Assembly: GCA_035549195.1 (NCBI GenBank)
Contig: DASZRK010000061.1
Span: 1-32,393 of the forward strand
DNA: 32,393 nucleotides
DNA from: a bacterium
GTDB lineage: Bacteria; Oederibacteriota; Muellerivitia; Muellerivitales; Muellerivitaceae
Reading direction: 5' to 3'
Made by a program: the position numbers and the translations under genes. The notes beneath the pieces are model-generated. The model did not search any database. It saw only the letters and a program-made list of their open reading frames with translations, and was not told the origin of the DNA. The stretch's first letter is position 1. Each line of letters opens with the position of its first letter. Below, in pieces: positions 19,793 to 27,366 of this stretch.

Positions 19793-19865
19793 GCCAAAAG
19801 GGCCTAAAAGTATAGGATTTTCATCCCGCTCCGCGCTTTGGATTTACCGTTTAAGGCGCGTGGGC

Positions 19866-20402
19866 TCAAGGCGCGTCCTCGTCCTTTTCGGGCAGGGATC
19901 CATAGGACCCCACGGTTTCCTTGAGGGCGGGCAGGTCCTCGTGGAGCACCTGGACATTGGGACAGGAGAGGACAAAGAGGATGACACGGTCTTCCTCCCC
20001 CACATAGGCCACGGCCTCGCAGGTGCCGTCCTTGAGCCGGGTGTAGAGATAGACCGGCACCGAGCGCAATTGTTTGGTCGAAAGGATCGGACCTTTCAGG
20101 ATCTCCATCTTGGGGTTCGAGGCCTTGCCGTCCTGCGCGTCCTTTTGGACCAGGTCCTGGACGGTCTTGACCTTCCCGCCCAGCCCGAACGTCGAAAGGG
20201 TGATGACCGAATCGGCCTTGTAGTAGGAGGAGCCTTGCGGGTAGAGGACCAGGTCGGCCTCGACCTGGGAAGCCAGGGACCGGTCCAGGACCCATCCCAC
20301 GGGCGCGTCCAGGGAATAGGAAAAGCCGTCCCCCTGGATCCACTCGGCCCGGAGGGGCAAGGCCAGGATGAAAAGGAAAAGACAAGCGGGTATGCAGCGC
20401 AT
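19866..20402 (-). CDS. Secreted protein of unknown function
   Basis: 178 residues. Signal peptide MRCIPACLFLFILALPLRAEW (cleavage after LRA, about residue 19). Mature part starts IQGDGFSYSLDAPVGWVLDRS, then alternates strands and short helices (ADSVITLSTFGLG, VYLYTRLKDGTCEAVAYVGEEDRVILFVLSCP), with two cysteines that may pair. The opening FSYSLDAPVGWVLD has the look of small PsbP/DUF1795-like periplasmic domains, which begin with a short 'YxxxxPxGW' strand; I hold that as a suggestion. It ends in an acidic tail. Monocistronic, with a -10 candidate upstream; no functional partner nearby. Confidence 0.75.
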   Translation of the reverse strand: MRCIPACLFLFILALPLRAEWIQGDGFSYSLDAPVGWVLDRSLASQVEADLVLYPQGSSYYKADSVITLSTFGLGGKVKTVQDLVQKDAQDGKASNPKMEILKGPILSTKQLRSVPVYLYTRLKDGTCEAVAYVGEEDRVILFVLSCPNVQVLHEDLPALKETVGSYGSLPEKDEDAP

Positions 20403-20437
20403 CGGGCGGGTCTCCGTTCGGTCCTAGGATGGGAAGT

Positions 20438-20443
20438 ATCATA
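20438..20443 (-). promoter_or_regulatory. Candidate -10 for the secreted protein gene
   Basis: TATGAT on the minus strand, 36 bases upstream of the ATG at 20402; identical to the -10 candidates at 5221 and 7928. The rest of the 20403-20640 gap shows no gene. Confidence 0.35.
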
Positions 20444-20640
20444 GACCGGGAAAGGGCCTTCCGCTGGGTCCGGTCGGGGTTTACCGGTGCCCGGGGGGAC
20501 CGAGGGTCCGGGCGATGGACGACACTTTGGGATGGTCCGGCGTCCAATACCTTGGCGGGGTCACATCCCGGCCGGGGTAAGGTAGGATGAAGTAGCGCAG
20601 GAAGGATGCGGGGATCACGCGTGGGAAAGAGGGGGATGGA

Positions 20641-23600
20641 ATGAGGAATGTCCTGGGGGTTTTGGTCTTGATGGCGCTGGCGGCGGTCCGCTCCTTCGCC
20701 GCCGATGCGGCCTCGATGAACTGGCTGGTGAACGGGGATTTCAGGTCCCAGGGCGGCTGGAACAACAGCCCCACCCTGGTGGATGGCCCAGAGGGCTTTC
20801 CGGCGGCCTTCCTGGAGAACAAAAGCCCCATGTGGACCGAGTTCAGCCAGCGGGTGGACCTGCCCCAACCCCTGCCCCCCGCCCTCGAGGTCTCGGGATG
20901 GCTCAAGACGGAGAACGTGGTCAAGGGCCCGAACGATTGGGAAGTGGCCCGCATCACCATCGTCTTCTACGACGCCAACGGCAAACGCGCCGGGGATTGG
21001 CCCGCTCCCATCGCCAATGTGCAGGGCACCCATGATTGGGAATACTATTCCAACCAGTTCACCCCTCCGCCGGGAACGGCCTGGGTCACCACCGAGATCT
21101 CGCTGGGGAACTGCACGGGCAAGGCCTGGTTCAGCCGCCTGGCCCTCACTGTTTACGACTATGACCAGAAGCCCCTGGCCCCGGGCCAACCCACCCATCC
21201 GGACCGGAAGGCCCCCTCGGACGTCCGTTCGGACAACTGGCTGCTCAACCCAGGCTTCGAGATGCCGGGCGGCGGCGATTGGGGGCAGGCCCGCATCGGG
21301 AGCCCCGGCCACGACTCGATCCATTGCCTGGTGGAATCCAACGACAGCCCGGCCTGGACCCTGGCCAGCCAGAACGTTTCCTTCAAGGATAAGCATCCGG
21401 TCTTCGTGGTCTATTCGGGTTGGGTCAAGACCAAGGGCGTCACCGTGGGCGCGAACAACTGGGAAACGGCCCGCCTGGGGATCGACTTCCGGGACGACCA
21501 GAACAAGCAGGTGGGCGGATGGCAGGATTCGGTCTGCAAAGTGGTCGGTGACAGCGACTGGGCCTATTACGAGAAGAAATACGCCGTTCCCACCGGGGCC
21601 ACCCAGGCCCAGGTGGACGCGGGGCTGGGCAATTGCGTGGGCAAGGGCTGGTTCGACGACCTGGCCCTGAAGCTCCTGGACGCTGACGGCAAGGCCATCA
21701 CGACCCTGCTGGTCACCGAGCAGAGGTCCGACACCTCCGATTGGTACGCCTATACCCCGCCCAAGGACCCGGCCGACGCGCCGCTCGACCTCTCCTTCCT
21801 CAACGACCGACCCGCCGGGAAGCACGGCTTCGTCACCGTGAAGGACGGCCATTTCACCTTCGCCGACGGCACCCGGGTGCGTTTCTGGGGGAGCGACTTG
21901 GTGGGGCCCAATAATTTCCCCACCCACGCCCAGGCCGACGCCCTGGCCGTGCGGCTCTCCAAGCTGGGGGTCAACCTCATGCGCTTCCACATGCCCGAGG
22001 CCAGTTGGAGCCCGGACAACAACTTCTTCGATCCCAAGGCCGACAACACCCTCACCCTCAAGCCCGAGCAGGTCGAGAAGTTCGACTACCTCCTGGCGGC
22101 CTTGAAGAAGAACGGCATCTATTTCTACCCCGACTGGCTGGTGGACCGGAAGTTCAAGGAAGGGGACGGGGTGATGGCCTGGCAGGACCTGGGAGCGGGC
22201 GCCAAGGGGGTCATCCATTTCGACCCCAAGGTCATCGAGCTCACGAAGAAGTACGCCCAGGAGCTCATCGGCCACGTGAACCCCTACACGGGCCTCGCCT
22301 TGAAGGACGACCCGGCCTATGTGGGCAACGAGATCGCGAACGAGTCCTCGATCTTCTCGGGGTTCGGCGCGCAGGATTTCCCCGAGCCCTACTGGGACGA
22401 ACTGCAGAAGATGTATTCGGCCGCCGGCGGACCGGGCGCCATCACCCGTTTCAAGTTCGACTGGGAGACCCAGAAACTGGTGCCGGTGAAGGATCCCGAG
22501 AACGCCGACGCCACCTTGAAGTTCCTCCTGGCGCAGGTGACCCGGGCGGACCGGGACATGAAGGAATTCCAGGCGGGCTTGAGCCCCCATGCCCTCTTGA
22601 CCGGCAGCAACATGGGCCTGCCGGTGCTGGGCTCCATCCGCTCGGACGCCACGCTCGACTTCATGGACACCCACGCCTATTGGGACCATCCCCAGATCTG
22701 GAACATCGCCGGGGGCTGGCAGAACGTGGCCCACGCGCCCATGAACAACACCTCCCAGCTCTTGAGCCCCTTCCAGGGTTCGCTGGTCTTCGGCCTGTCG
22801 AACGACGCGGTGGAGGACAAACCCCTCATCGTCACCGAGTGGAACGACTGTTTCCCCAACGAGTACCGCCTCGAAGGGCCGATGCTCATGGCCGCCTACG
22901 GGAGCCTGCAGGATTGGGACGGCATGCTCCAGTTCGACCACGGCATCGACGTGCCCGGGACGGTGCGCATGACCAATTTCGACATCAACAACCGGGTGGA
23001 CGACCAGCCCCTCTTCCAGGCGGGGGCGCTCATCTTCCGCCTGGGCTACCTGAAGGCCTCCCCGGTGACGGTGGTGGAACCCCTCTCGGACAAGGACGTG
23101 CTTTCCAACGGCATGAAGAGCGATTGGCTCTTCGACCATCCCTGGCTGCCCTATGTGGCCCGGGTGGTGAAGAAGTTCACGGGGAAGGGGGAGGGGAAGC
23201 CCGCCGACATCGCGTCCATCGAGAAGCTCTATGACGCCTCGGGCAAGCGGGTGGATAGCGTGACCGGGGAGGAATCCCTCGACTTCGACAAGGGCATCCT
23301 CAAGATCGATAGCCCCAAGGCCCAGGGCTTGGTGGGGAACATCGGGGTGGAGCAAGTTTTGGGGACCAGCGGCTTCACGATGAAGCTGGCCAAGCGCAAC
23401 CCTTTTGCGGCGGTGGTGGCCCTGTCCTTGGACCGGCAACCCTTGGACCGTTCCAAGACCTTTATCGTCATCGCCCAGGCCCGGGCCGAGAACAGCGGCC
23501 AGGTCTATAACCCCACCCGCACCGCGCTCAAGGAGGCGGGCGGCCCGCCCATCCTCCAGCAGGGGGTCGAGGGGGCGCTGTCCATCCGGGTCGGGGCTTC

Positions 23601-23748
23601 CGCCCGGTTCGCGGTCTATCCCCTGGACGAGTCGGGGCACCGGAAGGCCGCGGTCCCGGCGAAGGTGGAGAAGGGCGCCTTGAAGTTCTCCATCTCGCCC
23701 AAGGACCATACGTCCTATTACTGGGTGACGGCGGTCGACAAGAAGTGA
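20641..23748 (+). CDS. Large secreted clan GH-A glycoside hydrolase with two carbohydrate-binding-like domains
   Basis: 1035 residues with a signal peptide (MRNVLGVLVLMALAAVRSFA, 1-20). Two homologous beta-sandwich modules follow, about 26-185 and 200-360, each opening with NWL(V/L)N-G(D/F) and sharing WL/VKT...NDWE/NNWE, DWxYY and GNCxGKxWF. They resemble CBM4/9-type binding modules. From about 375 to 850 lies a TIM barrel: FVTVKDGHFTFADGTRVRFWGSDL, GVNLMRFHMPE, EIANES (564-569) with Glu568 as likely acid/base, and VTEWND with Glu733 as likely nucleophile. That pair places it in clan GH-A (GH5-like). A C-terminal beta domain (about 910-1035) ends the protein. Substrate not deducible; likely a beta-linked polysaccharide. 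Shine-Dalgarno GAGGGGGA. Ends 3 bases from the convergent neighbour. Confidence 0.85.
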   Translation: MRNVLGVLVLMALAAVRSFAADAASMNWLVNGDFRSQGGWNNSPTLVDGPEGFPAAFLENKSPMWTEFSQRVDLPQPLPPALEVSGWLKTENVVKGPNDWEVARITIVFYDANGKRAGDWPAPIANVQGTHDWEYYSNQFTPPPGTAWVTTEISLGNCTGKAWFSRLALTVYDYDQKPLAPGQPTHPDRKAPSDVRSDNWLLNPGFEMPGGGDWGQARIGSPGHDSIHCLVESNDSPAWTLASQNVSFKDKHPVFVVYSGWVKTKGVTVGANNWETARLGIDFRDDQNKQVGGWQDSVCKVVGDSDWAYYEKKYAVPTGATQAQVDAGLGNCVGKGWFDDLALKLLDADGKAITTLLVTEQRSDTSDWYAYTPPKDPADAPLDLSFLNDRPAGKHGFVTVKDGHFTFADGTRVRFWGSDLVGPNNFPTHAQADALAVRLSKLGVNLMRFHMPEASWSPDNNFFDPKADNTLTLKPEQVEKFDYLLAALKKNGIYFYPDWLVDRKFKEGDGVMAWQDLGAGAKGVIHFDPKVIELTKKYAQELIGHVNPYTGLALKDDPAYVGNEIANESSIFSGFGAQDFPEPYWDELQKMYSAAGGPGAITRFKFDWETQKLVPVKDPENADATLKFLLAQVTRADRDMKEFQAGLSPHALLTGSNMGLPVLGSIRSDATLDFMDTHAYWDHPQIWNIAGGWQNVAHAPMNNTSQLLSPFQGSLVFGLSNDAVEDKPLIVTEWNDCFPNEYRLEGPMLMAAYGSLQDWDGMLQFDHGIDVPGTVRMTNFDINNRVDDQPLFQAGALIFRLGYLKASPVTVVEPLSDKDVLSNGMKSDWLFDHPWLPYVARVVKKFTGKGEGKPADIASIEKLYDASGKRVDSVTGEESLDFDKGILKIDSPKAQGLVGNIGVEQVLGTSGFTMKLAKRNPFAAVVALSLDRQPLDRSKTFIVIAQARAENSGQVYNPTRTALKEAGGPPILQQGVEGALSIRVGASARFAVYPLDESGHRKAAVPAKVEKGALKFSISPKDHTSYYWVTAVDKK

Positions 23749-23751
23749 TCC

Positions 23752-24993
23752 TTAGGCCTCGAAGCGGGCGGCCCAGGCCTTGGGCCCCAAGGGGCAAAGG
23801 TCCTTGGGCTTCTTGAACAGCCGGCTCCGGACCCTCGCCACGACGTCATAGGCTCGGTCCCTCCAGGCCCGAGGGACCAGCCGCCCTTTCCAGGCCATCA
23901 GGCGCCACAGCCCTCCCATTGTTTCCAATAGAAAGAGCACCGCGTCGGAACGGGTCAACAGGATCCCACCGGGGGTCCGGACCACCAGGCTGTCGGGAAG
24001 CCCGGCGCGGACCTTGGCCGGGACCATTCTTTTAAATGCCTTCCCCTGGAGCGGCGCGAATCGGAAGGCCGGTTGTTGCCGGTCCTCCGCCAGGATGAAC
24101 ACCACCGTCCGGTGGCAAAGCCCGCAGGCTCCGTCATAAAAGAGGACCGGCGTCCCCTCGACCTTCCGGGGCTTGATCCATCCTGGGTCGAAGAGGAAGC
24201 CTTGCACGACCAGCATCCCCAAGGTCAGTTCGGGGAAGTCCAAGACCGCCAGGATCACCAGGTGCATCCAGGTGACGGCGGCCCAAACCCAGGGCCTGAG
24301 GACCCGGAACAAGGCCAGGGGACCGTTCAGGAATTCCAGCAGCAACACGCCGAAGCCTAAGGCCGCCAGGAGCGGGGCGGGCAGGGCGGCCAAGAGATGC
24401 GCCGCGGAATTGTCCCGGGCCATGGGATGTTGAAGGATCCAGGACAGGGCCGTGCCGTCGGTCCAGGAATGGGTGAAGGCCTTCCGGTAACCGCTGTAGG
24501 AATAGGTCCAGGAGACCACCAGCCAGGCCGCGCCATAAAGGGCGGATGGAAAGCTCCAAGAGGCGCCCCGGTCGGACAGGCGCCGGGCTTCCCAGGAACC
24601 ATAAGGCGCCCGGGGCAGGCAGGCGTGGGCCAAGAGGAGCCATCCGAGGTAGGGGAGGTGGGGATTGAGGATGAGCGGGTTGCGGTCCAGCAGGCAGGCG
24701 CCGATGAGCCAAAGGAAGACCGCGGCCCAACGGTCCCAAAGCCCGATGGCCAGGCAAATCCCGGCCAAGACTCCGGATGCCAGGAAGAGGCCGATGAACC
24801 CCGGGCTGTTCCAATAGGCGAGCGGGTTCGGAAAGAAAGAAAAGGCATGGCTTTGAGCGGCGAGGGCCAGGGCGCCTTGGCTTGAAAAGAGCTCCGTCCC
24901 CCAAGGGATGAGCCTTAGGAAGTGAAGGGCCATGAAGAGGCCCAGCAGGGCGCGGAAGAGGCTGTATTGTCCGCCGGTCCATTGGTTCCTCAA
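23752..24993 (-). CDS. HTTM-DCC fusion membrane protein
   Basis: 413 residues. Residues about 1-275 form a multi-helix membrane region (e.g. FRALLGLFMALHFLRL, FIGLFLASGVLAGICLAIGLW) of HTTM type, the horizontally transferred relative of vitamin K-dependent gamma-carboxylase. WTYSYSGYRKAFTHSWTDGTAL near 162-182 matches its core, with Lys170 in SGYRKAF. Residues about 280-400 are a DCC (DUF393) thiol domain: PVLFYDGACGLCHRTVVFIL with the DxxCxxC at 287-293. The two together in one chain suggest a redox step coupled to the membrane enzyme (inference). Its start overlaps the preceding secreted-protein gene by 4 bases. Confidence 0.83.
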   Translation of the reverse strand: MRNQWTGGQYSLFRALLGLFMALHFLRLIPWGTELFSSQGALALAAQSHAFSFFPNPLAYWNSPGFIGLFLASGVLAGICLAIGLWDRWAAVFLWLIGACLLDRNPLILNPHLPYLGWLLLAHACLPRAPYGSWEARRLSDRGASWSFPSALYGAAWLVVSWTYSYSGYRKAFTHSWTDGTALSWILQHPMARDNSAAHLLAALPAPLLAALGFGVLLLEFLNGPLALFRVLRPWVWAAVTWMHLVILAVLDFPELTLGMLVVQGFLFDPGWIKPRKVEGTPVLFYDGACGLCHRTVVFILAEDRQQPAFRFAPLQGKAFKRMVPAKVRAGLPDSLVVRTPGGILLTRSDAVLFLLETMGGLWRLMAWKGRLVPRAWRDRAYDVVARVRSRLFKKPKDLCPLGPKAWAARFEA

Positions 24994-25457
24994 GGGCAGC
25001 CGCCATCGAGGGGGAAGTCGGCCTCGGGGAAAAGGGAGACGCCGGGGGTCATGATGCGGATGCGGGCGGGCCAGCGGACCGTGGACCGGTCGATGCCCAT
25101 TTCCGCCAGGAGGGGACCGCAGAGGGCGTAACGCTTGACCGACCCGGTCATGGAATGGGGGTCGTCCCAGTTGCCCGTCAATATCCGCAGGTACATGCTG
25201 CGGCGGGCGAGGGGACCGGGGATGCGGTCCAGGACCGAAGGGCCCAGGCGATCTTGATGCTCAGTGCCCGCCTGGTCGGTCCAATCCAGGTAGTAGCGGC
25301 AGGCGAAGCTCTCCACGCCGTTGGAGCGGCAAAAGACCTGCGGGGCCGGGGCGGCGTCGGTGGCCAGGGCGGCTTGGCCCAGGCCCTGCCAATGGAGGAG
25401 ATCCCCGGTGACCTGGGAAAGACCCAGGAGCAGGAGGAACAAGGCCCGGACCCTCAT
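24990..25457 (-). CDS. Small secreted protein coupled to HTTM-DCC
   Basis: 155 residues with an N-terminal signal sequence (MRVRALFLLLLGLSQVTG, about 1-18). Mature part has four to five cysteines (VFCRSNGVESFACRYYLDW, ALCGPLL, GGCP) that could form disulfides. No known family; the tail includes TPGVSLFPEADFPLDGGCP. It overlaps the HTTM-DCC start by 4 bases (ATGA), so it is the first gene of a two-gene unit and a natural candidate substrate or partner of that membrane enzyme. A TAGAAT -10-like sequence stands upstream on this strand. Its 5' side is bounded by the mobile element at 25499. Confidence 0.7.
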   Translation of the reverse strand: MRVRALFLLLLGLSQVTGDLLHWQGLGQAALATDAAPAPQVFCRSNGVESFACRYYLDWTDQAGTEHQDRLGPSVLDRIPGPLARRSMYLRILTGNWDDPHSMTGSVKRYALCGPLLAEMGIDRSTVRWPARIRIMTPGVSLFPEADFPLDGGCP

Positions 25458-25498: not shown

Positions 25499-25540
25499 CC
25501 TCCTCCCCACAAAGGGGCCAGGCCTACATTTTACACTTTA
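25499..25540. repeat. Left inverted repeat of the REPtron
   Basis: Runs from CCTCCTCCCC to ACACTTTA; perfectly complementary over 42 bases to 26502-26543. Hairpin CCCC (25505-25508), ACAAA, GGGG (25514-25517), with CTAC at 25524-25527. Confidence 0.9.
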
Positions 25541-25564
25541 CCGATCCAGGAGGACGGATAAAAT

Positions 25565-26518
25565 GTGGCCATGCCCCGCCCCCGACGTATCCATTATGAA
25601 GGCGCCGTTTATCATGTGACCTCCCGCGGCAACGAGCGGCGAAGGATCTTTTTGGACGACAAGGACCGTTGGGTTTTCCTCCGCCTTTTGGAGGAGGTGA
25701 TCCGGGAGGAAGGGGTCCTCTGTCATGCCTGGGTCCTGATGGACAACCACTATCACCTCCTGCTGGAGACGCCGGGGTCCAACCTTTCCCGGGCCATGTG
25801 GCACCTCAATGGTCTCTATACCCAGCGGTTCAATAAACGTCATGAACGGGTCGGGCATCTCTTCCAGGGGCGCTTCAAGGCGATCGTGGTCGAGAAGGAA
25901 ACCTACCTCCAGGAACTCTGCCGCTATGTGGTCCTGAACCCGGTGCGGGCCCGTATGGTGAAGGCCCCGGGCGATTGGAAGTGGAGCAGTTACCGGGCAA
26001 CGGCGGGCTTGGACCGAAAGGAAAATTGGCTGGAAATCGATTGGATCCTGTCCCGGTTCGGCCGCGGGCGGGAACAGGCCCAAAGGGCCTATCGAAAGTT
26101 CGTGGCGGAGGGGGTCGGTCAAAAGGTGTCCCCGTGGGAGGAACTGCGTTCGAGGGTCTATTTGGGCAGCGAAGTTTTTTTGGACCATGTCCAAGACAGG
26201 GGAAAGGAACAACGGGGCCCGGATATCCCGAAGTACCAAAGGTCGGTGGTGCGCCAGTCCCCCCAAAAGGTGTTGGCGAAGGTGGGCGCGGAATTTGGAT
26301 TGGACCCGGCCGGGATCCTTCGCCGGGGTTCCCGCAAGAGCGAAGGGCGGGCGGCGGCGATCTATCTGCTGCGGCAAGAGTCGGGGTTGAGTTTGCGCGA
26401 GATCGGGATTCAAATGGGGGTCGGTTTCTCGGCGGTGGGGAACCAATGGGCCAGGGTCAAGCGGCGGATGGAACAGGACCCCGGCTTCGCCCGCCGGGTG
26501 CTAAAGTGTAAAATGTAG
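25565..26518 (+). CDS. REP-associated tyrosine transposase (Y1_Tnp/IS200-like, RAYT)
   Basis: 317 residues. Start GTG at 25565, since AGGAGGA lies 10 bases upstream; ATG at 25571 (MPRPRRIHYEGAVYHVTSRGN) is the usual family start but far from it. HUH endonuclease: MDNHYHLLLE with His62 and His64, catalytic Tyr114 in KETYLQELCRYVVLNPVRA. RAYTs cut single strands at REP hairpins. The C-terminal part (about 240-305, EGRAAAIYLLRQESGLSLREIGIQMG...SAVGNQWARVKRR) is a helix-turn-helix of the DnaA C-terminal type. The stop codon TAG is part of the right repeat's GTAG. Intact reading frame; probably still functional. Confidence 0.92.
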   Translation: MAMPRPRRIHYEGAVYHVTSRGNERRRIFLDDKDRWVFLRLLEEVIREEGVLCHAWVLMDNHYHLLLETPGSNLSRAMWHLNGLYTQRFNKRHERVGHLFQGRFKAIVVEKETYLQELCRYVVLNPVRARMVKAPGDWKWSSYRATAGLDRKENWLEIDWILSRFGRGREQAQRAYRKFVAEGVGQKVSPWEELRSRVYLGSEVFLDHVQDRGKEQRGPDIPKYQRSVVRQSPQKVLAKVGAEFGLDPAGILRRGSRKSEGRAAAIYLLRQESGLSLREIGIQMGVGFSAVGNQWARVKRRMEQDPGFARRVLKCKM

Positions 26519-26543
26519 GCCTGGCCCCTTTGTGGGGAGGAGG
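26502..26543. repeat. Right inverted repeat of the REPtron; carries queE's RBS
   Basis: Inverse of the left end. GTAG at 26515-26518 overlaps the transposase stop codon. Hairpin CCCC (26525-26528), TTTGT, GGGG (26534-26537). The final AGGAGG (26538-26543) is the only good Shine-Dalgarno before queE. Confidence 0.9.
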
Positions 26544-27192: not shown

Positions 27193-27201
27193 CCATGTGG
27201 A

Positions 27202-27349
27202 CCGCCAAGCCGCCAAGCCGCCAAGAAAACCGGGATCGGTGGACGGCTTTTCTTCTTGGAAGATCCCTTTCGACGGAAGGTTCGCCCCGTTCGTCTTCCT
27301 TGGGCCGTGCAGGGTATTCGCTGTCCTTGGCGTCTTGGCGTCTTGGCGG
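27202..27349. repeat. Inverted small-unit array between queE and queC
   Basis: Left arm: three perfect 8-bp units CCGCCAAG (27202-27225). Right arm: CTTGGCGT, CTTGGCGT, CTTGGCGG (27326-27349), the inverse with one varying base, 100 bases apart. The array ends 17 bases before the queC start and the queC frame is spuriously open through it to 27256. Confidence 0.85.
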
Positions 27350-27366
27350 TGGATCGGGGTGCGGCC

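Follow-up and report, generated by a model that had tools for sequence, protein, structure and literature searches.

We found that the 1045-bp unit lying beside queE in the window (the whole stretch of DNA that was analysed, 32,393 nucleotides) is quite likely a TIRtron, that is, a TIRYT gene set between terminal inverted repeats (TIRs) which would act as transposition ends, with the C-terminal domain of the protein on the TIR and the HUH domain cutting about 7 nt outside the tip. It belongs with the TIRtrons of PMC3733652 and probably falls in subclass 2.1 of PMC6006769, as these elements are outlined in the relevant passages of both papers. What is new here are the duplications at the tips and the break position predicted from their outer edge. 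The anatomy, the multiplicity of the units in relatives, the solo ends, the deletion derivatives and the duplication signature with its outer edge can all be read from the sequences compared; the coordinates are collected in Table 1.

The perfect 42-bp inverted repeats proposed in an earlier note on this DNA were confirmed. Both arms are 100% complementary, with a spacing of 961 nt, and the core 18-mer of the arm occurs twice in the window, once in each arm, against 0.04 occurrences expected by shuffling. It was also correct that one end covers the stop codon of the gene: the right arm holds the stop TAG (26516-26518), which is at the same time the TAG of the GTAG at 26515-26518. The GTAG and the 4-bp hairpin (CCCC-TTTGT-GGGG) that the same note assigned to each end are indeed present in both arms; their reading as GTAG REPs was discarded because the GTAG is not conserved, being replaced in relatives by GTGG, TTGG, ATAG and others, and because the folding of the arms is no better than that of shuffles (z of -0.49 for the right arm and -0.64 for the other). 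In relatives, TIR similarity usually ends at or before the GGGG half, so the hairpin is not a feature of the family. A different and strong hairpin is formed in the window copy by the left TIR together with the start-codon region (25499-25580, z -4.19), while the right end has a z of 0.11. It was considered as a general trait and rejected, with a mean z of -0.57 for 36 elements (five below -2) against -0.26 for gene interiors (2 of 37); this hairpin is peculiar to the window copy and absent in relatives.

Table 1. Features of the unit beside queE, in positions of the window.
Feature	Positions	Strand	Basis
Left terminal inverted repeat of 42 nt, matching the right one exactly	25499..25540	-	sequence
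Right terminal inverted repeat, covers the last codons and the stop codon	26502..26543	+	sequence
Left TIR tip GGGGCCAG (outward reading CTGGCCCC); GGGGTCAG in relatives	25514..25521	-	comparison with relatives
Right-end TIR tip CTGGCCCC	26521..26528	+	comparison with relatives
Left-end break zone, +5 to +9 outside the tip	25505..25509		predicted
Right-end break zone, +5 to +9 outside the tip	26533..26537		predicted
Extra mirrored 8 nt past +7, left, CCTCCTCC	25499..25506		15-nt outward identity, longest among 76 pairs
Extra mirrored 8 nt past +7, right, GGAGGAGG; possible queE ribosome-binding site	26536..26543		sequence
Promoter-like TTTACC - 16 nt - TAAAAT - 6 nt - ATG	25537..25570	+	spacing in 8/10 family copies
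TIRYT gene, Y1 HUH transposase-like protein, 315 aa	25571..26518	+	profile matches
HUH motif H60-Y61-H62	25748..25756	+	invariant in protein alignment
Catalytic tyrosine Y119 in Y---NP	25925..25927	+	invariant in alignment; class 2 motif in the passages of PMC6006769
C-terminal domain, residues 229-315, predicted DnaA domain IV fold	26255..26515	+	structure model
DnaA-box-like 9-mer TTTTACACT, left TIR, 7/8 informative positions	25529..25537	+	suggestive only
DnaA-box-like 9-mer TTTTACACT, right TIR	26505..26513	-	suggestive only

The 315-aa protein matched Pfam Y1_Tnp at residues 12-120 and the NCBIfam model of REP-associated tyrosine transposases (REP_Tyr_transpos) with a score of 92.3 against a cut-off of 80; a match to Bac_DnaA_C at residues 232-283 was weak and below its cut-off. 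H60-Y61-H62 and Y119 with its NP are invariant in 10 of 10 aligned proteins, and the tyrosine motif of the window protein is YVVLNP, not Y---Q. Among five structure models only one was confident (mean pLDDT of 83.5; 57.7-63.8 for the other four), and it was this best model that could be aligned with TnpAREP (4er8) with a Z of 16.6 and 2.3 Å over 156 residues, and, through its residues 229-315, with DnaA domain IV (1j1v) with a Z of 13.2 and 1.7 Å over 87 residues. The DnaA-like C-terminal domain extends past the segment matched by the solved TnpAREP. As modelled, the protein looks like a RAYT-type nuclease with a seemingly complete DnaA DNA-binding domain. The reading frame, the HUH motif and the tyrosine are intact in the window gene, and the copy as a whole looks intact.

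A left/right inverted pair beyond shuffles was present at 41 of 61 gene starts of a first set of relatives (39 of 46 full-length ones), from which starts with less than 60 nt of stretch upstream or less than 90 nt downstream were excluded (L011 among them). A further set had a TIR pair in 54 of 72 genes, with no detectable pair in the other 18, and 9 of these 54 were removed because they repeated one another or members of the first set. The ends of the family have AAAGTG..AATG..GGCCTGACCCCTTTG in common. In relatives each end consists of an inner part, which is specific of the copy and common to its left and right sides, and a tip that is usually CTGACCCC or CGTCCC; agreement of the inner part was on average 0.885 between left and right of one copy (n = 11 elements or derivatives) versus 0.679 between different copies (220 comparisons). 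Among full-length cases, overlap of the right TIR with the stop codon was seen in 23 of 39 in the first set and 20 of 45 in the second, and in some copies (L012) the first 9 nt outside the tip are unlike between the left and right ends. Direct repeats of 7-8 bp in the inner TIR reached a score of at least 5 in 9 of 41 elements, against 0.7 expected; they are real in a subset but not general. L227, L229, L230, L232, L234, L235 and L236 carry a TIRYT lineage whose genes have no detectable TIR pair, and several of these loci align through their flanks across species; by sequence, they look like cases of domestication. A second TIRtron type, with a different inner TIR, was seen in a single relative genome as truncated pieces that are 99% identical at two sites, L017 2454-2690 and L046 1947-2183 (the same as L066).

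Short tandem duplications across the tip and the first flank bases were observed at 38 of 160 ends, where about one per set would be expected by chance. They were defined as units of 7-30 nt with at most 10% mismatch that start within 16 nt inside the tip, and only ends whose tip could be recognised and whose flank measured 14 nt or more were counted (77 of 82 in the first set and 83 of 90 in the second). The first set had 19 duplicated ends out of 77, compared with a mean of 0.11 after shuffling the outer flank (largest 2 in 300 runs) and 0.76 in random windows (largest 4). For the second set the values were 19 out of 83, with controls of 0.34 and 0.92 (largest 3 and 4); this set is partly dependent, as L204 is a 97.8% copy of L203, itself the same stretch as L036. 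The inner edge of the duplications lies between -17 and about 0 in most of them, and the range of the outer edge overlaps +5 to +9 in 16 of 19 per set (32 of 38). When the 38 boundary pairs were entered by hand, each duplication contributing a single outer edge, placed leftmost, 30 fell in this zone, against a mean of 31% and a maximum of 58% in 20,000 permutations of the periods; the zone was chosen after viewing the first set and the second was searched by the same rule. Identity between left and right ends, measured per position in 76 pairs, was about 0.65 at +1 to +4 and 0.41 at +7, and reached background by +10. Considering that the outer edge of the duplications coincides with the stop of left/right identity, we infer that one strand or the other is broken some 7 nt outside the tip. 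Gene-less ends of one relative genome (G005) stand outside these counts, and five of them show duplications by eye, without a control (L108, L113 twice and L115 twice).

Related TIRtrons, to judge from their sequences, move as units. Near-identical whole units with unrelated flanks were found in two Verrucomicrobia-group genomes, one with L203 and L204 (97.8% over 1169 bp) and one with L220 and L222 (96.6% over 1137 bp). In both pairs the tips are repeated in one copy and not in the other at one end at least, so the repeats arise on single insertions. The breakpoints of homology between near-identical copies are located 0, 0, 3, 3, 5, 6, 6, 8, 9 and 10 nt outside the tip; none is beyond 10 nt, but the spread is not tight. 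G005 has, besides solo ends, ten matches to the protein that vary in their state, and its deletion derivatives retain both ends, as in L110 (about 1873-2064), whose ends are 91% and 94% identical to those of L010. The presence of near-identical units at several sites of one genome shows that movement as a unit occurs in at least some class 2 Y1 genes, and the window unit is probably mobile by type. The perfect identity of its arms had been taken as a sign of recent movement, which turned out not to be secure: in L125 and L127, from two species of one genus, the unit occupies one shared site, the 3.9 kb compared there, flanks included, being 87% identical, and the left and right ends differ at no more than 2 of 41 positions within each, so that ends may still be near-matching at that divergence without a recent move. 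The TIRs of L125 and L127 are 41-bp self-palindromes, and their unit is vertically inherited at that site.

The end and the whole unit were searched for, as the earlier note had recommended. The 1045-bp unit and its gene occur once in the window's own genome, where no second full copy was found. Ends searched there at up to 3 mismatches comprised the two arms, one exact solo end and one with 3 mismatches; the solo ends are on contig C39 (32 bp, 97%) and, degraded, on contig C18 (3 mismatches), and relatives carry units elsewhere. On C39 (L004 1501-1620) the 3′ end of the upstream gene, which we take to be pirin-like, is repeated behind the solo end, starting at about +8 outside the tip; from its sequence, this repeated 3′ end appears to be a displaced or truncated paralogue. 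The TIRYT protein is present in 4 of 8 family genomes (1, 3, 10 and 1 matches), with 61-65% identity for the full-length ones, and its nearest named relatives belong to candidate division FCPU426 MAGs. queE was located in 6 of the 8 genomes, the own one included (G004 and G007 had no match). In 5 of 5 relatives with queE, queC is kept beside it and the unit is absent there, the flank covered being about 1.0-1.5 kb upstream of queE; the case in which the note would have called the unit immobile at present, all relatives carrying it at one site with no other copies, was not observed. The empty site joining the left gene to queE, which it also had in mind, was not found in these five genomes because the left neighbour, absent from their queE flank, does not adjoin queE in them. 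A sister-genome search with a 4.7-kb stretch of G005 gave diverged pieces only and no clean empty site. Among 72,556 plasmid records 23 matched, one of them covering at least 80% of the query and all below 60% identity, and the viral contigs searched gave no confirmed match. Although no TIRYT match was obtained at E 1e-10 in the genomes G006 and G003, they show 12 and 5 tip-like sites against 2 and 2 in the reversed control, possibly fossil ends.

With regard to class, the passages of PMC3733652 and PMC6006769 on these elements describe TIRs unrelated to REPs and a motif GGGGWSAS, borne by "some" TIRs in the former and by the majority in the latter, and hence typical but not defining; the window tip GGGGCCAG is off at one of the eight positions, and the GGGGTCAG of relatives fits. 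HTH or DnaA_C tails are mentioned for the subclass in PMC6006769. TIRtrons are known, though little studied, cousins of the REP systems. Named in 2013, the TIRYTs have their probable home in subclass 2.1, which was described in 2018 as second in size among the Y1 subclasses. The window unit has a RAYT-type Y1 HUH protein with HUH and Y---NP, long TIRs unrelated to GTAG REPs and a C-terminal domain of the HTH or Bac_DnaA_C kind, the latter by a weak Pfam match and a fold match on the one confident model. It shares with the TIRtrons, as there portrayed, the long TIRs at a fixed distance, the overlap with the 3′ end of the gene, and TIR repeats that are solo or paired. The copies of class 2 are presented in those passages as few and poorly conserved within a genome, whereas here near-identical whole units occur in two genomes. 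Neither a break position nor tip duplications are described in them; here the duplications are observed and a break position is predicted. Literature searches for an earlier account of the tip duplications showed none among the matches listed, and this silence does not prove that no earlier description exists. How TIRYT ends are recognised and cut is left open in the same passages, and the duplication edges give a concrete, testable cut position. When the literature was searched for the tip sequences as strings, among the matches listed all look unrelated by title, and GGGGTCAGG together with transposase and inverted repeat had no match.

The REPtrons, which according to those passages of PMC3733652 and PMC6006769 do not appear to travel as units, have the same catalytic domain (TnpAREP of E. 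coli, 4er8), the Y---NP motif and a gene flanked by inverted elements. The window unit differs from them in that it has no conserved GTAG hairpin, none beyond shuffles, no population of dispersed REP copies in its own genome and a DnaA-like domain added, and in that such units are mobile in relatives. In the expression "compact mobile REPtron" of the earlier note, the compact unit of a mobile type stood, as it is absent at queE in the five relatives and their units are at different sites, and the REPtron did not, in view of the long TIRs and the HTH-tailed protein. The passages of PMC6006769 give Y---NP as the motif of class 2 and Y---Q as that of IS200/IS605. The latter (IS608, ISDra2) have the same HUH Y1 fold, but in the window unit the motif is YVVLNP, and long inverted ends take the place of subterminal hairpins, which are not found at both ends. 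DnaA domain IV is alike in the predicted fold of residues 229-315; no AAA+ part was seen in the window protein, and the DnaA-box likeness of the TIR is limited to part of the clade. RAYTs are also reportedly divided into groups by Bertels et al. in 2017.

In the mechanism that we propose, the C-terminal DnaA-like domain would bind the inner, copy-specific TIR and the HUH domain would break the strand about 7 nt outside the near-universal GACCCC/CGTCCC tip through Tyr119, a division of labour between the inner TIR and the tip. The whole unit, internal-deletion derivatives or single ends would then be copied or moved. A second break within the TIR, variable in position and followed by filling and joining, would duplicate the intervening piece and leave the tandem duplications of the tip; if this is true, tandem tip copies in the flank map the cut without biochemistry. 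Since the inner TIR holds the -35-like part of the putative promoter, binding could also repress the transposase gene. More broadly, and with a confidence somewhat short of even, the TIRtrons may represent a distinct class of HUH transposons in which a DnaA-type domain replaces hairpin recognition, with a fixed nick spacing of about 7 nt at both ends and a nick-and-rejoin footprint in the flank.

The window copy has no tip duplication, and its left and right ends stay identical for 15 nt past the tip, further than in any other of the 76 pairs; L125 and L127, with their self-palindromic TIRs, come next. With a break at +7, eight mirrored nucleotides of flank are left over, CCTCCTCC at the left end and GGAGGAGG at the right end; the right-hand one is suitably placed to be, possibly, the ribosome-binding site of queE. 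These mirrored bases could come from a palindromic target, from copying between the arms, or from chance. Insertion in the middle of a natural 16-bp palindrome CCTCCTCC/GGAGGAGG would agree with a break at about +7, which would let the flanks join into such a palindrome, but we consider it unlikely, as no empty site was found and left/right identity past +9 is at background in the 76 pairs, so that it is not a rule. A doubtful though somewhat better candidate is that the unit is an immobile leftover whose arms are kept identical by gene conversion or template switching, the extra 8 nt being flank copied from the queE side. The single copy in its own genome and the length of the mirror identity are consistent with it, and so are L125 and L127, which at one site and 87% identity keep ends with no more than 2 mismatches in 41 bp, though their TIRs are self-palindromic; the intact frame, HUH and Tyr, and the absence of the unit at queE in 5 of 5 relatives, argue against it.

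It is very improbable that the unit is a domesticated REPtron, with a RAYT serving the host and two GTAG REPs maintained by selection. Such a reading takes in the match to the RAYT family model, the single copy and the GTAG in both arms, but it conflicts with the variation of the GTAG position in relatives, with arm folding not beyond chance, and with the lack of a REP population, as a search allowing up to 3 mismatches gave only one close solo end and a degraded one; the extra DnaA-like domain past the TnpAREP-matched part and the absence of the unit from the queE flank of the five relatives also speak against it. As to the tip duplications, replication slippage at G+C-rich ends, which would leave no mark of an enzyme cut, would explain an inner edge that varies from -17 to about 0. 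We regard it as improbable, because the outer edge does not vary in this way (30 of 38 in +5 to +9 at the leftmost placing, beyond the 58% reached at most by permuted periods) and random windows taken from these loci yield about one duplication. For the unit itself we retain the TIRtron reading.

Two further observations concern the inner TIR. In 8 of 10 copies of the family, the left TIR supplies at its inner edge TTTAC, 16 nt, TAAAAT, 6 nt and ATG, and the spacing is one base off in the other 2. This element suggests a promoter for a leaderless message, whose -35-like part and the inner edge of the TIR overlap. In the window unit the inner TIR has TTTTACACT, and the TIRs of L011, L019 and L057 have TTATCCACT, which agree with TTWTNCACA at 7 of 8 informative positions. 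The DnaA-box score was on average 6.0 in seven family elements versus 5.07 in shuffles (largest 6.14), and mildly raised in the 45 elements of the second set (5.36 versus 4.86; largest shuffle 5.22); 34 other elements of the first set showed no enrichment (4.97 versus 5.06). DnaA boxes as a general feature of TIRs were rejected, because the score is not above chance in these 34 elements and the orientation of the 9-mer varies between clades; the likeness is suggestive, a lead and not a result. In the passages of PMC6006769 on the tip, its consensus is said to be unlike DnaA boxes, and the inner part is not considered there.

Around the unit, the minus-strand frame at 19804-23709 (1301 aa) and the left neighbour at 24990-25457 (155 aa) had no Pfam match at 0.01. 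Between queE and queC, at 27201-27350, lies a second inverted-repeat unit that is not related to the first and is built on CTTGGCGTC repeats, its 47-nt arms being 74% complementary; allowing up to 2 mismatches, CTTGGCGTCTTGGCGTCTTGGCGG had 16 matches in the own genome, versus 0 in the reversed control.
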